Source: Pseudoclavibacter chungangensis (GTDB lineage Bacteria; Actinomycetota; Actinomycetes; Actinomycetales; Microbacteriaceae). From it: a DNA stretch of 64,000 nt. Numbering within the stretch: position 1 is the first letter of the stretch; each line of letters starts with the position of its first letter. The position numbers were made by a program, and so were the translations under genes. Below, one piece after another: positions 32,936-40,569 of this stretch. The notes beneath the pieces were generated by a model. The model was not told the origin of the DNA. It did not search any database and saw only the letters and a program-made list of their open reading frames with translations. The stretch covers positions 1,364,001 to 1,428,000 of the forward strand of contig NZ_JACCFV010000001.1 in NCBI RefSeq assembly GCF_013410545.1. The letters are read 5' to 3'.

Positions 32936-33463
32936 TCACGCGAACGCGTAATAGAACGCGAGGTGCAGGGCCAGGATCAGGTGCAGGGTCGAGAGTCGGT
33001 CGCGGAGCGTCGCCTGTACCAGACCGAGCGCGAGGATCGCGAGGCTGGGAAGAAGGTTCGCGGGGGCGAAGCGATCCGGGATGAACAGGGCGTGTCCGAG
33101 CCAGAACACGATCGCGGTGGTGACGACGACGGGCCATCGACCGAGCCGTTCCGCGAGGTAACTCTGCAGGAGTCCGAACGTCAGGTAGTCCTGCCAGAAC
33201 ACAGAGACCGCCATCCACCCGATGTAGAGAGGGAGGGGCAGGACGAGTCCGTAGTGGAACGGGAGCGCGACCGCGAGGAGGGCGGGAAGCACGTACGCCC
33301 ACATCCATCTCGATCTCGCGAACAGCGTCCGGTTGTAGCGGCGGTGGAGCGCGACGAGCACGATCGCAAGGAGCGCCGCGACAACCGTTTCGACGCGGAC
33401 GGCGGCGCCGAGGTCTGAGCTGATGAGGTGACCGATGCCGTCGGTCAGGAGCCCGGGGGGCAA
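32936..33463 (-). CDS. Degenerate CPBP-like membrane protein, start uncertain (frameshift)
   Basis: 175 aa from TTG 33463, but coding-like helical sequence (VPVWGLPVAVVAWFGLW) continues upstream in the same frame to about 33540 with no start codon; a GTG start (VTSPQSPSNDP, 33584) lies in the next frame, so a single-base shift near 33530-33545 is likely. About six helices. Segments line up with the CPBP protease pattern, but the EExxxR catalytic motif is WQDYLTFG, and IVFWLGHALF and LALHLAFYYAF hold the His positions. Probably not proteolytic. Confidence 0.5.
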   Translation of the reverse strand: MPPGLLTDGIGHLISSDLGAAVRVETVVAALLAIVLVALHRRYNRTLFARSRWMWAYVLPALLAVALPFHYGLVLPLPLYIGWMAVSVFWQDYLTFGLLQSYLAERLGRWPVVVTTAIVFWLGHALFIPDRFAPANLLPSLAILALGLVQATLRDRLSTLHLILALHLAFYYAFA

Positions 33464-33949
33464 GGCCCAGAGTCCGAACCAGGCGACGACGGCGACGGGC
33501 AGCCCCCAGACGGGGACGCGGCGACCGTCGAGATGGGGGAGGGGGCTGCGCGGGGTCGTTCGAGGGGCTCTGGGGCGAGGTCACGTGAACATCGTGGCAG
33601 GCCGGTCGGGGACGTGGTGGACGACGCGGGGACGTGGTGGACGACGCGGCCGGGGATGATCCGCGGGGTCGACGACGTCGGCTGCGGGCGCATCGAGCGC
33701 ATCGGGCGCATCGGGCGCATCGAGCGCAGGGTCAGGTCTCGCCCGCGTGTGGCGCGGGCGTGCCGTCATCGACGCGCGGGAGGACAGCATCGGGTGTGAG
33801 CCAACCGACCTCGCGCGACCTCGCGCGACCTCGCGCGCGCCGCTGTGTTTGGTGATCGTGCCGCTGGGTTCGGTGTGTGCGGGTCTACTTGGTGATCGTG
33901 CCGCTCGTGCCGGCCAGCGTCGCTGTTCCCGGTGGTCGTCGTGCCGCGA
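33464..33949. other. Intergenic region rich in short tandem repeats
   Basis: Besides the putative 5' end of the CPBP-like gene (to 33584), this stretch holds a 20-bp unit (GACGTGGTGGACGACGCGGG) repeated exactly at 33611-33630 and 33631-33650 apart from one terminal base, a run of GCGCATCG(A/G) units at about 33688-33727, and four ACCTCGCGCG units at 33808-33840. No gene is convincing. Confidence 0.6.
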
Positions 33950-35683
33950 TCAGCAGGGTGGTGGATCGTTCCCGCCGTCGGCTTCGGCATCAGTTCTCGC
34001 CCGACTCCGCCGTGGCCTGTGGGCGCCGCGTCGGCGCTGCGCGCTCGGAAGCGCGTCCACGGATTCCGGGCAGGGAGAAGTCTCGAGCTCGGGGTCGAAC
34101 TCGAACTCCGCTTCCATGCTCGTGCGTGGCCGTTCGGTGACCGGTCGAATGGTCGGTGCGATCGAGTGTTCGGAGGTGTCGAGTGCGCGAACGAGCCCCG
34201 TCGGTGATACCGGGCGGTCGTCTCCGTCTGGTGGATGGTCGCCTCGGCCTGGTGGGTGGTCGTGTCCGTCGTCGTGGTAGGCCCATGAGGGTCTGAACCT
34301 GGGCCCGACGGGGTTGGGCCGGTCGGAGTAGCGATCGCCGCCCGGTGAGAACCAGACCAACCGTCCCGGTTCGCGTTGTTCGACTCGCCACCGGGTGGCG
34401 TGCTTGAAGGTGTGGTGTCGGCGGCACAGGTGCGCCATGTTCCCGAGCGAGGACGTGCCGCCGTCGGTGACCGCGATGGTGTGGTCGATATCGCACCGCC
34501 GTGCCGGGCGGGTGCAGCCCGGGAAGCGGCAGTGCCCGTCCCGCACGCGCAGGAACTCGCGCTGCGCCGCCGTCGGGAAGCGCGTGTCGCTCTCGCGAGC
34601 GACGCCCGTGATCGGATCGGTCAGCACCCGCAGGAACGACGGCGCACGCGCCGCGAGTTCCCGCGCCTGCTCCACCGGAACCGGCACCACCCCGTCGAGC
34701 AGCGCGGGGTCGTCGCCGCCATCGAGGAGTGAGAGCACGGGCACGGTGATCGCGACCCTGGCGTTGATGCCGCCGGCCGCGCCGTGCGGTGACCCGCACC
34801 CCTCTGCGGGGTCGCTGGTGAGGACGAGTTCGCACAGCAGGTCGGCGCGGATCTGATCATGCGTCCGGGGCTCATCCGGACCCGCGAGCGCTTTGGCCTG
34901 TTCGGTGAGCCGGTCGAGCATTGCCGCGCCGAGGAGGGTGGGGACGAGTGCTTCGAGTCGGCTCATGCCGTCGTCCTCGTGCACGACCCGCACCCCGCGC
35001 TGCTCGCGCGCGATCTTGTGGCGCTCGTCGAGACTCTCCCGCATGAGCGTCTGCGCTGCCCGCCGCGCGCGAGCCCGCAACCTGGCGGGCGTCTCCCGCG
35101 AGGCCCCGTCGACCACGGCCCGCTCGTACGCTTTGCGGGCGTCGTCGTCGGGGAGGCGTCGTCCTTCAGCGAGGATCACGCGCACGTGCGCGAGGGAGAG
35201 GTGCCCATCGCGGAGCATTCCTTCCGTGGCGGGGAACGCGTCGCGCAGCATGAGGCTCTCGCCGAGTTCCCGGGACACGACCGGCTCGGGCCGGCTGGTC
35301 GCGAGCGCGAGCTGGGCGGTGCGTTCACGCATCGCCGTCACCACCGCATCATCACTCCCAGGAAACTCCTCCCGAGCCGAAGCGAGGGTCGCTTCGTGGA
35401 TGAACGCGAGCAGTTCCGCGCGGCGGGCCTCGGCTTTCGCGATGAGTTTGTCTTCGGCGCGGATCGCGTCGAGCGCCAGGTCGAAGGCTTCGTCGTGGGC
35501 GCCGATGCCGTCGAGGTGTTGCAGGTGCATCATGAACGCAACGTGCGGCGCGACCGTCGCCTGACCACGCGGCCGAGGACACGCGTCACCACCGGCCGAC
35601 GGGCGCGCGTCACCGCCGACCGTCGGACGCGCGGTGGCGTCCGGGGCCGGTACGGCAGTGCCGTCGGGCTCGTGATCGTTCAT
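33950..35683 (-). CDS. DUF222 / HNH endonuclease (REP13E12-type) protein
   Basis: 577 aa from ATG 35683 (GTG 35689 also possible). An N-terminal disordered region of ~45 residues is followed by the DUF222 helical domain (LRDGHLSLAHVRVI, RARARRAAQTL) and a C-terminal HNH nuclease motif: HCRFPGCTRPARRCDIDH, then LCRRHHTFKH, containing the Cys pair and catalytic histidines. These families are often multicopy mobile-like genes in actinobacteria, known as REP13E12 in Mycobacterium tuberculosis. Function unknown, presumably DNA cleavage. The start is fed by a tandem array of its own 5' end. Confidence 0.85.
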   Translation of the reverse strand: MNDHEPDGTAVPAPDATARPTVGGDARPSAGGDACPRPRGQATVAPHVAFMMHLQHLDGIGAHDEAFDLALDAIRAEDKLIAKAEARRAELLAFIHEATLASAREEFPGSDDAVVTAMRERTAQLALATSRPEPVVSRELGESLMLRDAFPATEGMLRDGHLSLAHVRVILAEGRRLPDDDARKAYERAVVDGASRETPARLRARARRAAQTLMRESLDERHKIAREQRGVRVVHEDDGMSRLEALVPTLLGAAMLDRLTEQAKALAGPDEPRTHDQIRADLLCELVLTSDPAEGCGSPHGAAGGINARVAITVPVLSLLDGGDDPALLDGVVPVPVEQARELAARAPSFLRVLTDPITGVARESDTRFPTAAQREFLRVRDGHCRFPGCTRPARRCDIDHTIAVTDGGTSSLGNMAHLCRRHHTFKHATRWRVEQREPGRLVWFSPGGDRYSDRPNPVGPRFRPSWAYHDDGHDHPPGRGDHPPDGDDRPVSPTGLVRALDTSEHSIAPTIRPVTERPRTSMEAEFEFDPELETSPCPESVDALPSAQRRRGAHRPRRSRARTDAEADGGNDPPPC

Positions 35684-36554
35684 ACCCACACCCCATCACC
35701 GCCCTCGGACATTGCGATCCGTCGAGGGACACGGGCGGATGATGCCTCGGAACCCGGTAGGCGCGACCCCGAGATCACGATGCGGGGCACGAGACCACCG
35801 GCAGCGGGACACGCGCTGGCGTCCGGGGCCGGTACGGCGGCGGTGCCGTCGGGCTCGTGATCGTTCATACCCACACCCCATCACCACCCACGGATATTGC
35901 GATCCGTCGAGCGGCACGGACGGATGATGCCTCCGAATCCGGTAGGCGCGACCCCGAGATCGCGATGCGGGGCACGAGACCACCGGCAGCGGGACACGCG
36001 CTGGCGTCCGGGTCCAGTGCGGCAGCGGTGCCGTCGGGCTCGTGATCGTTCATACCCACACCCCATCACCACCCAGGGGCAATCCGACCCGGCCCCGGAG
36101 CGAAATCGGGAACGGGGTTCGGGCAAACCCGCGAATGGTGGCGCGTTCGACCACCTACCGCGCGAAGGCTCACGCCACCGCCACCGCCACCGCCACCGCC
36201 ACCGCCACCGCCACCGCTACCGACCGTCGGACGCGGGGTCGCGTCCGGAACCGGTGCGGCGGCGGTGCCGTCGTGTTCGTGTTCGTTCATACCCACACCC
36301 CGTCACCACCCACGGACAATCCGACTCGGCCCAGGAGCGGGCGCTTGAACGAGCACGCGACCAGTGACGGCGGAAACCCTCGAACGCTGACAGCTTGACC
36401 CACGACCTCCAGCGCGACGGCGCCCGTCACCGGCGCCCGTCACCCGCGCCCGTCGGACGCGGGGAGGCGTCGGGGCCGGGGCTGTGGTGCCGTTGCGCGT
36501 GTGGTCGTTCATACCGACACCCCATCACCACCCACGGACATTCCGACCGGTCGC
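35684..36554 (-). repeat. Tandem array of the DUF222-HNH gene 5' region (five start-region copies)
   Basis: The block GGTGATGGGGTGTGGGTATG, with flanking bases, recurs with an ATG at 35683, 35868, 36053, 36290 and 36512. The first two units upstream of the gene are exactly 185 bp (35684-35868 and 35869-36053) and almost identical; the next two, 237 and 222 bp, have divergent interiors. Each copy begins MNDH or MNEH then E..DGTA, like the gene itself. The 185-bp reading frames end in a TGA overlapping the next ATG (ATGA), so ribosomes could be handed from copy to copy. Confidence 0.8.
36175..36216. repeat. Hexanucleotide microsatellite (CCACCG)7 within the array
   Basis: Seven perfect CCACCG units inside the third upstream unit encode 14 consecutive glycines when read with the leader frame on the minus strand. 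Length changes would be in-frame. Confidence 0.7.
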
Positions 36555-36925
36555 CGGAGCCGCGAGGCCGACCCCTCGGATGCAGGCACACTCGACCACC
36601 CCCACGCCACGACCACCCCACGCCGCGACCCCCGCGGCCCCCGTGACGAGTATCGGTCCCGAGTCGCCGTGAAGGACGGAGGACACGATCACCGATGTCC
36701 GCCTGCTCGCCGCCACCGCGTGAGGCCATCGGACGCCCCGATGTGACGGCACAGGTCACTCGTCGCCGACGTCCGGCCGTCCCGGGCGGCCCGTCCGACG
36801 CAGTGGGAATGACGCGGTGGGAATAGGGTGAATCCTGCACGACGAAGACGAAGCGAGTGTCAGGCGGTGGTGCGACGGATGCGCCTGGCGCCGCCGCGAC
36901 CACCAGGGAAGGCAGCTGATCGAAG
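36555..36925. other. Intergenic region upstream of dld
   Basis: About 370 bp between the repeat array and dld. It contains ACGCAGTGGGAATG / ACGCGGTGGGAATA as a short direct repeat (36798-36826). No gene or clear promoter recognised. Confidence 0.5.
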
Positions 36926-38635
36926 ATGCATGATGAGGGATTCCGAGGCTCGAAGGACGCCCTGAACGCGTTCGTCGACATCCTGGGGAAGGCACACGTC
37001 CTGACCTCGTCTCGGAGAACGGCCCCGTACGCGAGCGGAAGCCGATTCGGTTCGGGGAAGGTCCTCGCCGTGCTCCGCCCGGGCAGCCTCGTCGACATGT
37101 GGCGTGTCCTGCAGGTCTGCGTCGACAAGAACCTCATCGTCATCCCGCAGTCCGCGAACACGGGCCTGACCGGCGGGTCCGGTCCGGGTGACCAGGACTA
37201 CGACCGCGATGTCGTGATCATCTCGACGATGCGCATCGACGACATCCACCTCATCAACGATGCGCGCGAGGCGGTGTGCCTGGCCGGGTCCAAGCTCTTC
37301 GAGCTCGAGGACGCACTCGCTCCGCACGGGCGCGAACCGCACTCGGTGATCGGCTCGACCTCGATCGGTGCCTCGGTGATCGGCGGGATCGCGAACAACT
37401 CCGGTGGCAGCCAGGTGCGCAAGGGCCCGGCGTTCACCGAGCACGCGATCTACGCCCGCGTGAACGAGCAGAACAAGGTCGAGCTCGTCAACCACCTGGG
37501 CATCGAGCTCGGCGACGATCCCGCGACGGTGCTCGACCGGCTGCAGCGCGGCGACTGGACGGCCGCCGACGTCACGCCGCCGCCGGCCGACTCCGCCGAG
37601 ACCGACTACGCCGAGCACGTGCGTGAGATCGTCGGCACGCCGGCGCGTTTCAACGCCGACCCGAAGTTCCTCTTCGAGGCATCCGGATGCGCGGGCAAGC
37701 TCATGGTGTTCGCCGTGCGGACGCGGACGTTCCCGAAGGATCGCCACACCACGACGTTCTACATCGGCACGAACGATCCCTCGGAGCTCGAGGACCTGCG
37801 GCGCGCGGTGCTCGGCGCGGACCGGCAGCTGCCCATCTCGGGCGAGTACTTCGACCGGTCCACGTTCGACCTCGCCGAGAAGTACGGTAAGGACACCTTC
37901 GTCGGGCTGAAGTACGCGGGAAGCCGCCAGCTCCGACGCATGTTCGCGCTCAAGACCTGGGCGAACGGCGTGTTCGCGAAGCTGCCGTTCTTCGGCCAGA
38001 CGTTCGCCGACACGATCGCACAGAAGGCGTTCGGGCTGCTTCCCCAGCAGCTCCCGAAGCGGCTGCTCGACTACCGCGATCGCTTCGAGCACCACCTGAT
38101 CGTCGAGGTCGGGGAGGACCAGAAGGCGGAGACCGAGGCGTTTCTCACCGCGTTCTTCGCCGAGCCGGGACGCGGCGGCGCCTTCCTCGTGTGCAACGAC
38201 AACGAGGCGCAGAGCGCGATGCTGCAGCGCTTCGGCGCGGCCAGCGCGATCGCGCGATACTTCAACCTCTACCGCGAGCGTGTCGGCGGGATGATCACCT
38301 TCGACGTCGCCATCCGGCGGGACGACGACGACTGGCTCGAGGTCCTGCCGCCCGAGATCGCCGACCAGCTCGAGGTGAGCGCCTACTACGGACACTTCTT
38401 CTGCCACGTGCTCCACCAGAACCACGTCGCGAAGAAGGGCGTCGACACGCTCGAACTGAAGAAGCAGATGACGAAACTGCTCGAGGACCGTGGCGCCGCG
38501 ATCCCCGCCGAGCACAACTACGGCCGCCTCTACGACGCGCCGCCCTCGCTCGTGGAGCACTACAAGGAGCTCGACCCGCTCAACGTCTTCAACGCCGGTG
38601 TCGGCAAGACGTCGCCGCACAAGAACTGGAGCTGA
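36926..38635 (+). CDS. dld: Quinone-dependent D-lactate dehydrogenase
   Basis: 569 aa, the size of the peripheral membrane enzyme. FAD-binding type-4 domain: VIPQSANTGLTGGSGP, then VIGSTSIGASVIGGIANNSGGSQ; C-terminal membrane-binding and cap domains follow, with HHLIVEVGEDQKAE and EHNYGRLYDAP. It oxidises D-lactate to pyruvate and passes electrons to the quinone pool. ATG 36926. It appears monocistronic. Confidence 0.93.
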   Translation: MHDEGFRGSKDALNAFVDILGKAHVLTSSRRTAPYASGSRFGSGKVLAVLRPGSLVDMWRVLQVCVDKNLIVIPQSANTGLTGGSGPGDQDYDRDVVIISTMRIDDIHLINDAREAVCLAGSKLFELEDALAPHGREPHSVIGSTSIGASVIGGIANNSGGSQVRKGPAFTEHAIYARVNEQNKVELVNHLGIELGDDPATVLDRLQRGDWTAADVTPPPADSAETDYAEHVREIVGTPARFNADPKFLFEASGCAGKLMVFAVRTRTFPKDRHTTTFYIGTNDPSELEDLRRAVLGADRQLPISGEYFDRSTFDLAEKYGKDTFVGLKYAGSRQLRRMFALKTWANGVFAKLPFFGQTFADTIAQKAFGLLPQQLPKRLLDYRDRFEHHLIVEVGEDQKAETEAFLTAFFAEPGRGGAFLVCNDNEAQSAMLQRFGAASAIARYFNLYRERVGGMITFDVAIRRDDDDWLEVLPPEIADQLEVSAYYGHFFCHVLHQNHVAKKGVDTLELKKQMTKLLEDRGAAIPAEHNYGRLYDAPPSLVEHYKELDPLNVFNAGVGKTSPHKNWS

Positions 38636-39237: not shown

Positions 39238-40569
39238 CGGTCACCGCGTGATCCTTCGAGAGAACTCTTCACATCCGTCTCGAAAGGACCCCGACGATGA
39301 CCGTCGCACCCCACGATATCGACCCTGCCCGTTTCCTCGAAGACCACCTGGCGCAAGCGTCTCCGGACCTGCTGCGAGAGATGATGGGCACCTTCATCAA
39401 TTTGTTGTTGTCCGCGGACGCCGACCAGGTCTGCGGCGCCGCCTACGGCACGATCAGCGTCGACAGGGTGAACCGTCGTAACGGTTACCGCTCGCGCGCG
39501 TTCGACACTCGCACTGGCACGATCGACCTCAAGATCCCCAAGCTCCGCTCCGGGACGTACTTCCCGGAGTGGCTGCTGGAGCGGCGCCGCCGCGCGGAGG
39601 CCGCGCTGACGACCGTGGTCGCGACGAGCTACCTCCTCGGCGTCTCGACGCGGCGGATGGACGACCTGGTCAAGACCCACGGGATCACCGGGCTCAGCAA
39701 GTCGCAGGTGTCGGAGATGGCGAAAGATCTCGACGAGCAGGTCGCCGCGTTCCGCACCCGACCCCTCGACGCCGGCCCGTACTCGTTCGTCGCCGCGGAC
39801 GCGCTCACCATGAAGGTCCGTGAAGACGGACGAGTCGTGAAGGTCGCGGTGCTGGTCGCGACCGGCGTGAACGCGGACGGTTACCGCGAGATCCTGGGCC
39901 TACAGGTCAACTCCACAGAGGACAGCGCCGGGTGGCTCACGTTCTGGCGCGACCTCGTCGCACGCGGCCTTTCCGGCGTGAAGCTCGTCACATCCGACAC
40001 GCACGCGGGACTGGTCACCGCGATCGGCGCGACCGTCGGCGGCTCCTGGCAGCGCTGCCGCACCCACTACGCCCAGAACCTCATGGCCGTCACACCGCGC
40101 AGTTCCTGGCCATGGGTGAAGACCCTCCTCGGAACAGTGTTCGACCAACCCGACGCCGACGCGGTGCACGCCCAGTTCGACCGCGTCCTGGACGCCCTCG
40201 GGCACAAGCTCCCGCGCTCGTTCGAGCACCTCGAGGCCGCACGCGAGGAGATCCTCGCGTTCACCGCGTTCCCGAAGAGCGTCTGGCGACAGATCTGGTC
40301 CAACAACCCGAACGAACGACTCAACCGCGAGATCCGCCGCCGCACCGACGTCGTGGGGATCTTCCCCAACCGAGACAGCATCATCCGACTCGTCGGCGCC
40401 GTCCTCGCAGAGCAACACGACGAATGGGCCGAGCAACGCCGCTACCTCGGCCTCGACGCTCTCGCCGCAGCCCGACGCGTCGGCAAACCCGACATCGAGA
40501 AGGTGACCGAACCCGACCTGACAGCCCTCACCGCATAACCCCGAAACACGAAGGATCACACGAACACCG
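39238..40569 (+). mobile_element. IS256-family insertion sequence
   Basis: The transposase gene is bounded by imperfect terminal inverted repeats of about 21 bp sharing GTGATCCTTCG (left, 39238-39258; right, 40549-40569). No target duplication is recognisable, and the right end abuts a truncated ISL3 transposase, so the element inserted into or deleted part of an older ISL3 copy. Confidence 0.75.
39297..40538 (+). CDS. IS256-family transposase (mutator type)
   Basis: 413 aa, intact. Mutator-family features: NGYRSRAFDTRTGTIDLKIPKLRSG N-terminally (here cited in part, RTGTIDLKIPKLR), DALTMKVREDGR (first Asp), LVTSDTHAGLVTAIGA (second Asp), and WSNNPNERLNREIRRR with the catalytic Glu. It cuts and pastes the IS. 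ATG 39297 follows AAAGGACC-type sequence. Confidence 0.93.
   Translation: MTVAPHDIDPARFLEDHLAQASPDLLREMMGTFINLLLSADADQVCGAAYGTISVDRVNRRNGYRSRAFDTRTGTIDLKIPKLRSGTYFPEWLLERRRRAEAALTTVVATSYLLGVSTRRMDDLVKTHGITGLSKSQVSEMAKDLDEQVAAFRTRPLDAGPYSFVAADALTMKVREDGRVVKVAVLVATGVNADGYREILGLQVNSTEDSAGWLTFWRDLVARGLSGVKLVTSDTHAGLVTAIGATVGGSWQRCRTHYAQNLMAVTPRSSWPWVKTLLGTVFDQPDADAVHAQFDRVLDALGHKLPRSFEHLEAAREEILAFTAFPKSVWRQIWSNNPNERLNREIRRRTDVVGIFPNRDSIIRLVGAVLAEQHDEWAEQRRYLGLDALAAARRVGKPDIEKVTEPDLTALTA

Follow-up and report, generated by a model that had tools for sequence, protein, structure and literature searches.

Tandem arrays of putative leaderless PafBC-type promoters ahead of DUF222-HNH genes in Pseudoclavibacter chungangensis

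Introduction

Why should the start region of a gene be present five times in a row ahead of that gene? The question is raised by a 64,000-nucleotide stretch of the Pseudoclavibacter chungangensis genome (contig NZ_JACCFV010000001.1, positions 1,364,001 to 1,428,000), hereafter the window, whose coordinates are used below unless another locus is named. A first-pass annotation regarded the copies as leader peptides, translationally coupled in a series that ends in a DUF222-HNH gene. DUF222/13E12 HNH genes are multiplied in many actinobacterial genomes, with up to 22 matches per genome, and to our knowledge their proteins have no assigned job. PafBC promoters, leaderless mRNAs and DUF222/13E12 genes are already known. 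According to the available text of the cited papers, the PafBC motif of Mycobacterium tuberculosis is TGTCGG-N10-TA-N3-T with the variants TGTCAG and TGTCAC (PMC8151990), and promoters carrying the -26 motif are used by the housekeeping polymerase, PafBC being activated by single-stranded DNA (PMC11804915). Here, we propose that the repeats are likely to be a tandem array of leaderless PafBC-type (RecA-NDp) promoters, each fused to a start codon.

Results

The array in the window

The DUF222-HNH protein gene was located on the minus strand at 33950..35689 using the ORF listing, Pfam and the block alignment, and encodes 579 amino acids counted from the GTG at 35689; the ATG at 35683 is probably its leaderless start. 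Membership of DUF222 was confirmed with PF02720 (E 7.6e-24, 85 bits against a cut-off of 24.4), and the C-terminal HNH domain scored 20.9 bits with PF01844, slightly below the cut-off of 21.4. The five tandem copies ahead of the gene are real: their minus-strand ATGs lie at 36512, 36290, 36053, 35868 and 35683, and successive copies are spaced 222, 237, 185 and 185 bp apart. Block 5, the gene-proximal candidate promoter (35677..35711, minus strand, ATG at 35683), reads TGTCCG-N10-TGGGGT and is intact, as is block 1, the most distal copy (36506..36540, minus strand, ATG at 36512). The three blocks between them, all on the minus strand, are altered in one of the two elements. Block 4 (35862..35896, ATG at 35868) and block 3 (36047..36081, ATG at 36053) combine a consensus -10 region with an altered -26 element (TATCCG and TGCCCC, respectively), and block 2 (36284..36318, ATG at 36290) combines an intact -26 element with an altered -10 region (CGGGGT).

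The two minus-strand units nearest the gene (35684..36053), each 185 bp from ATG to ATG, had been called exact; alignment gave 172 of 185 identical bases. The conserved stretch is also longer than the 40 bp first assigned to it and, in the block alignment, covers roughly positions -33 to +25 relative to the ATG. That a conserved control site precedes each ATG was supported by the sequence. A scan of 33000-37500 against Rfam gave nothing at the gathering score, the best match having an E value of 0.07. Unit 2, the longest here (237 bp), contains 8.3 copies of the hexanucleotide CGCCAC (36173..36222, no strand), a microsatellite of possibly variable length that, read in the leader frame of the unit, encodes a stretch of glycines. 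A plus-strand ORF a few kb from the array (39297-40538) is, by its look, presumably an IS256-type transposase.

Arrays at twelve paralogs

The genome is a single contig of 3,985,007 bases, and this one assembly of the species was examined. It contains 17 DUF222 matches. A 27-base block occurred 44 times in the 3.985-Mb genome at up to three mismatches and its reversed control did not occur, so the block is repeated beyond chance. Twelve DUF222 paralogs, including that of the window, carry three (five loci), four (three loci), five (two loci) or six (two loci) copies. The total is 49 blocks: 47 entered the first block alignment, and the other two, each with a one-base insertion, were included afterwards. 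A single related block copy is present at each of three more divergent paralogs, and nothing close to the block was seen at the remaining two. Since the twelve array loci lie on one contig and differ in their interiors and copy numbers, an assembly artefact at the window alone, a concern of the first-pass annotation, is unlikely.

Adjacent copies were 185-239 bp apart (mean 205) in 36 pairs, a set that leaves out a 1,364-base gap in locus L051. For 16 of the 36 units, the closest sequence was another unit of the same locus, against a mean of 2.3 and a maximum of 11 after shuffling. Some adjacent units were 93-98% alike, and hence some of the duplication is recent; other units most resembled one from a different locus (up to 92%). 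From these sequence relationships we infer that the units probably arose by repeated tandem duplication together with inter-locus exchange or shared descent.

The block as a PafBC-type promoter

In the consensus block, TGTCCG-N10-TGGGGT is followed by six bases and then the ATG, a distance from the -10 element that implies a leaderless transcript. The -26 element TGTCCG is one base off the published forms, with C in place of G or A, and the same variant occurs at recA of this genome. Both the N10 spacing and the final T are kept in the arrays: T stands at -7 in all 49 blocks, and C or T at -1 in 44 of them. The array -10 reads TG and not the published TA, which is found at recA, uvrB, a PcrA/UvrD-type gene and an ORF at locus L248.

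The pattern TGTCCGWGGN7TRNNNT matched the genome 44 times, and its reverse did not match. Thirty-six matches fell in the arrays, two at single-copy DUF222 paralogs and six elsewhere. At recA, TGTCCGAGGGGGCTCGTAGCGT lies about 117 bases ahead of the ATG and joins the same -26 element to a canonical TA -10; the ATG of uvrB follows the motif by 7 bases, and both gene assignments exceed the NCBIfam cut-off. The ATG of the PcrA/UvrD-type helicase gene lies 9 bases past the motif (best model pcrA, at 851.9 bits below its cut-off of 911.2). A 374-aa ORF at genome position 3,346,282 (L248:2155-3276, minus strand) has its ATG six bases past a canonical PafBC-type motif; it matched no firm family, the PDB search giving DNA-3-methyladenine glycosidase at E 0.064 only, and it is a candidate DNA-damage gene on the strength of its upstream motif. 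The match at genome position 1,979,538 (L214) lies about 220 bases ahead of a gene for a YneA-like LysM protein (43.6 bits, cut-off 60) and opposite an ORF that we take to be LexA-like. Rv2719c of M. tuberculosis is presumably a LysM protein. In that species, the PafBC box near lexA serves the neighbouring rv2719c operon (PMC8151990, available text). The sixth match, within a coding frame, is probably due to chance. A stricter form of the PafBC motif, TTGTCNGTG-N8-TANNNT, had no match in this genome; the matches described above depart from it by their first base, by TG where it has TA, or by an A instead of a T following TGTCCG.

The genome also encodes adjacent pafB and pafC genes: their products gave WYL matches, PafC matched HTH_PafC, and the PafBC structures 6SJ9, 7P5X and 9FND were matched. 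Loose SOS-box matches numbered 17 in 12,933 array bases (1.3 per kb) and 48 in 56,256 bases of the flank upstream (0.9 per kb); a single offset served to cut the flank at every locus, and several of the array matches are formed by the repeated sequence itself. A reading of GGTGGTGATG as a Shine-Dalgarno sequence was set aside, because relatives without GGTGGTGATG keep the same spacing to the ATG.

The block might also be a candidate site for recognition or cleavage by the HNH protein, in which case the array would grow by self-cutting and repair. It is indeed tied to DUF222-HNH genes and varies in number among the arrays. However, recA and uvrB, at which one would not expect a cut site, carry this -26 element too, and the promoter positions account for the conservation. 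We therefore judge a cleavage site to be extremely improbable.

The motif at DUF222 loci of other genomes

Three sets of loci were searched. The order set held 30 loci, one per genome, taken as the best 30 of 111 genomes with a match and thus not drawn at random; one of these loci (L181) came without upstream DNA and another (L185) was incomplete. The genus set held 54 regions, one weak match in genome G008 being left out. The family set held 29 of the 249 genomes with a match among 398 searched, with some loci cut by contig ends; among the matches listed in that search, the proteins of other genomes were 34-47% identical and two paralogs of this genome 91%. One gene from each of four genomes (G002, G004, G006 and G007) is present in the genus set as well as in the family set.

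The relaxed motif TGTC[ACG]G-N10-T[AG]-N3-T occurred upstream of the gene at 13 of the 30 order loci and at none downstream or antisense. A start codon followed 6-7 bases on at 12 of the 13, and 5 bases on at the remaining one. At the 54 genus loci, there were 17 upstream matches in 16 loci, two downstream and one antisense. At the 29 family loci, only three upstream matches were found, one with a well-spaced start, besides two downstream; this result is poor because the -10 element is degenerate there. The search was also made without the -10 requirement, as TGTC[ACG]GNG with ATG or GTG 27-29 bases on. Matches were then found at 15 of 30 order, 21 of 54 genus and 18 of 29 family loci, that is, at 54 of 113 with four genes counted twice. 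Their density was 0.49-0.78 per kb upstream versus 0.025-0.108 downstream and antisense, the background amounting to 3-10 matches per set and strand.

The distance from motif to start was 28 bases in 37 of these 54 sequences (32 unique), 29 in 13 and 27 in four. The 32 unique sequences were aligned, leaving out the 17 at a distance of 27 or 29 and five duplicates. T was present at -7 and C or T at -1 in all 32, and neither had been searched for; this is the trace expected of a -10 element that ends at -7 and of transcription from the A of the ATG. The -26 element was TGTCGG or TGTCAG in 31 of the 32. The motif is missing from many DUF222 genes of the genus: it was present at 16 of 54 loci in its relaxed form and at 21 of 54 without the -10 requirement. 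The genes without it seem to use other starts. A second DUF222 subfamily of the genus (L123, L124, L155, L163 and others) starts after GGGGAGGTNATCGTGGC without a PafBC-type motif, so that start regions of at least two kinds occur in the family.

Tandem pairs of TGTCSGWGG 183-213 bp apart, a pattern that misses TGTCAG types and other spacings, numbered 21 in this genome, compared with at most three in any other of 398 family genomes and at most four in any other of 396 order genomes; control matches reached three in one genome. The two genome sets overlap by 24 and comprise 770 distinct genomes, as counted by eye. At least one pair was present in 75 of the 398 family and 142 of the 396 order genomes, this one included, when counted regardless of DUF222 context. 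None of the 29 family loci had two relaxed motifs. The block DNA itself (TGTCCGNGGGTGGTGATG, up to one mismatch) was absent from the nine same-genus genomes searched and had one match each in two other genomes of 60 searched. Within the limits of these patterns, such arrays seem peculiar to this lineage. At one genus-level DUF222 locus (L138 of G008), two PafBC-type motifs stand 79 bp apart, possibly a small array.

Coding potential of the units

In the first-pass annotation, the TGA of each 185-bp unit overlapped the next ATG. This holds for both 185-bp units, that is, for two of the four upstream units of the window; in the other two, the TGA lies 15 bases ahead of the next ATG, within the block. 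Among the 36 unit frames of the genome, 19 end with a TGA-ATG overlap, eight inside the next block and three earlier, and six run past the next ATG. ATG or GTG is retained in 46 of the 49 blocks. Unit lengths modulo 3 were 0, 1 and 2 in 13, 3 and 20 of the 36 units (p 0.002). Such figures would suit control of the nuclease gene by a series of leader peptides coupled in translation. Nevertheless, the overlap arises because of the fixed ATGA together with the unit length, and the unevenness was reduced to 8, 2 and 9 of 19 (p 0.10) when equal lengths were collapsed. There may be a weak frame preference among the unit lengths.

The composition of the units argues against such a chain. From codon 26 on, the GC content by codon position was 0.688/0.690/0.697 in the unit interiors, compared with 0.762/0.529/0.833 in the genes that follow the arrays. 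In codons 3-25, it was 0.860/0.697/0.772 in the upstream units and 0.859/0.732/0.779 at the gene starts, as expected of copies. Deviation in codons 2-9 of the upstream units showed no third-position excess (third 11.5%, first 10.8%, second 12.8%). Fewer stop codons were present in the interiors than after base shuffling, but this held for every frame (4, 7 and 5 versus 14.4). Moreover, the block is retained in relatives that have a single copy and no leader. In an array of leader peptides, every unit would be expected to carry a coding signature and to couple its stop to the next start; the signature was missing from the interiors and the overlap occurred in 19 of 36. Because the interiors lack a coding signature, the leader-peptide chain is poorly supported and, in our judgement, very unlikely.

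State of the upstream copies

The promoter motif was intact in all 12 gene-proximal blocks compared with 24 of the 37 upstream copies (Fisher p 0.02), a difference in keeping with relaxed selection on extra copies. Deviation in the upstream copies rose from 4.5% in the core promoter to 6.4% in the spacer, 11-13% in codons 2-9 and 23% in the flank from -40 to -29, figures that include a one-base shift in two of the 37 rows. We read the upstream promoters, from these sequences, as partly kept and partly decaying.

The same data bear on whether the gene-proximal block alone works as a PafBC-type promoter, with the upstream copies being neutral or decaying duplications gained and lost by recombination. 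The excess of intact proximal motifs, the alteration of three of the five window blocks and the recent duplication evident from adjacent units 93-98% alike all agree with this explanation. On the other hand, the core promoter positions are those that deviate least in the upstream copies, and no locus carries exactly two blocks. A promoter at the proximal block alone is thus tenable but somewhat doubtful.

Discussion

In the array of PafBC-type promoters that we favour, each block would comprise a -26 element TGTCCGWGG, an extended -10 TGA and a -10 element TGGGGT with its T at -7, and the A of the block ATG would be the first transcribed base. Once activated by single-stranded DNA, PafBC would lead the housekeeping RNA polymerase to start at the block, yielding a leaderless DUF222-HNH mRNA upon DNA damage. 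The gene-proximal copy would drive the nuclease-like gene, and the upstream copies, some of them decaying, would probably contribute read-through transcripts into it, so that output could be additive. Since the same arrangement stands at twelve related genes, one stress signal may switch the whole family on.

The blocks have in common with the mycobacterial PafBC/RecA-NDp promoters, as far as the available text of PMC8151990, PMC11804915 and PMC6789036 describes them, the TGTC-type -26 element, N10 and the final T of the -10 element. Also common to both are recA as a target, the pafB-pafC pair, and a motif flanked by a LysM gene and a LexA-like ORF. They differ from those promoters in TGTCCG for TGTCGG/AG/AC, in TG for TA in the array -10, in the extended -10 TGA, and in the fusion to a start codon and the presence of 3-6 tandem copies. 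The REP13E12/DUF222 HNH genes of M. tuberculosis are likewise multicopy, and a link with DNA damage has been published for them: 13E12-family HNH genes are placed under LexA (PMC4181829), and five putative HNH endonucleases are RecA-dependent in mitomycin (PMC8151990), both in the accessible parts of these papers. Thus, LexA is the regulator named there, whereas the conserved motif here is of the PafBC type.

The literature searched on DUF222/13E12 HNH, TGTCGGTGG and PafBC, in the text available, contained no such arrays and no PafBC control of DUF222 genes. The feeding of single genes by tandem promoters is a general phenomenon. The present arrays resemble it in having several promoters per gene, but the repeated unit here includes the start and first codons, and it recurs at twelve paralogs. 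With 3-6 copies, the arrays would be a natural copy-number series for the additivity of promoter repeats under PafBC, and would also test whether damage-induced recombination shifts the dose of damage genes.

The duplicated unit would consist of the promoter, the start, about 25 codons and about 100 bp of flank, multiplied in tandem to 3-6 copies at 12 paralogs, possibly through unequal recombination. REP13E12 loci are reported as gene-conversion hotspots in the available text of PMC13061034. The arrays might even form a self-tuning circuit of 12 related, lineage-specific HNH genes under 49 PafBC-type promoters. In such a circuit, damage would increase both RecA and the HNH proteins. Blocks recombining with one another, perhaps with the aid of the HNH proteins, would alter the promoter number, which would thereby set the strength of the damage response in a heritable way; we consider this speculative and rather unlikely. 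At locus L052 of this genome (about 3,884,600), the promoter core of the most distal unit is itself doubled, the two cores lying 24 bases apart at 3,884,599 and 3,884,623.
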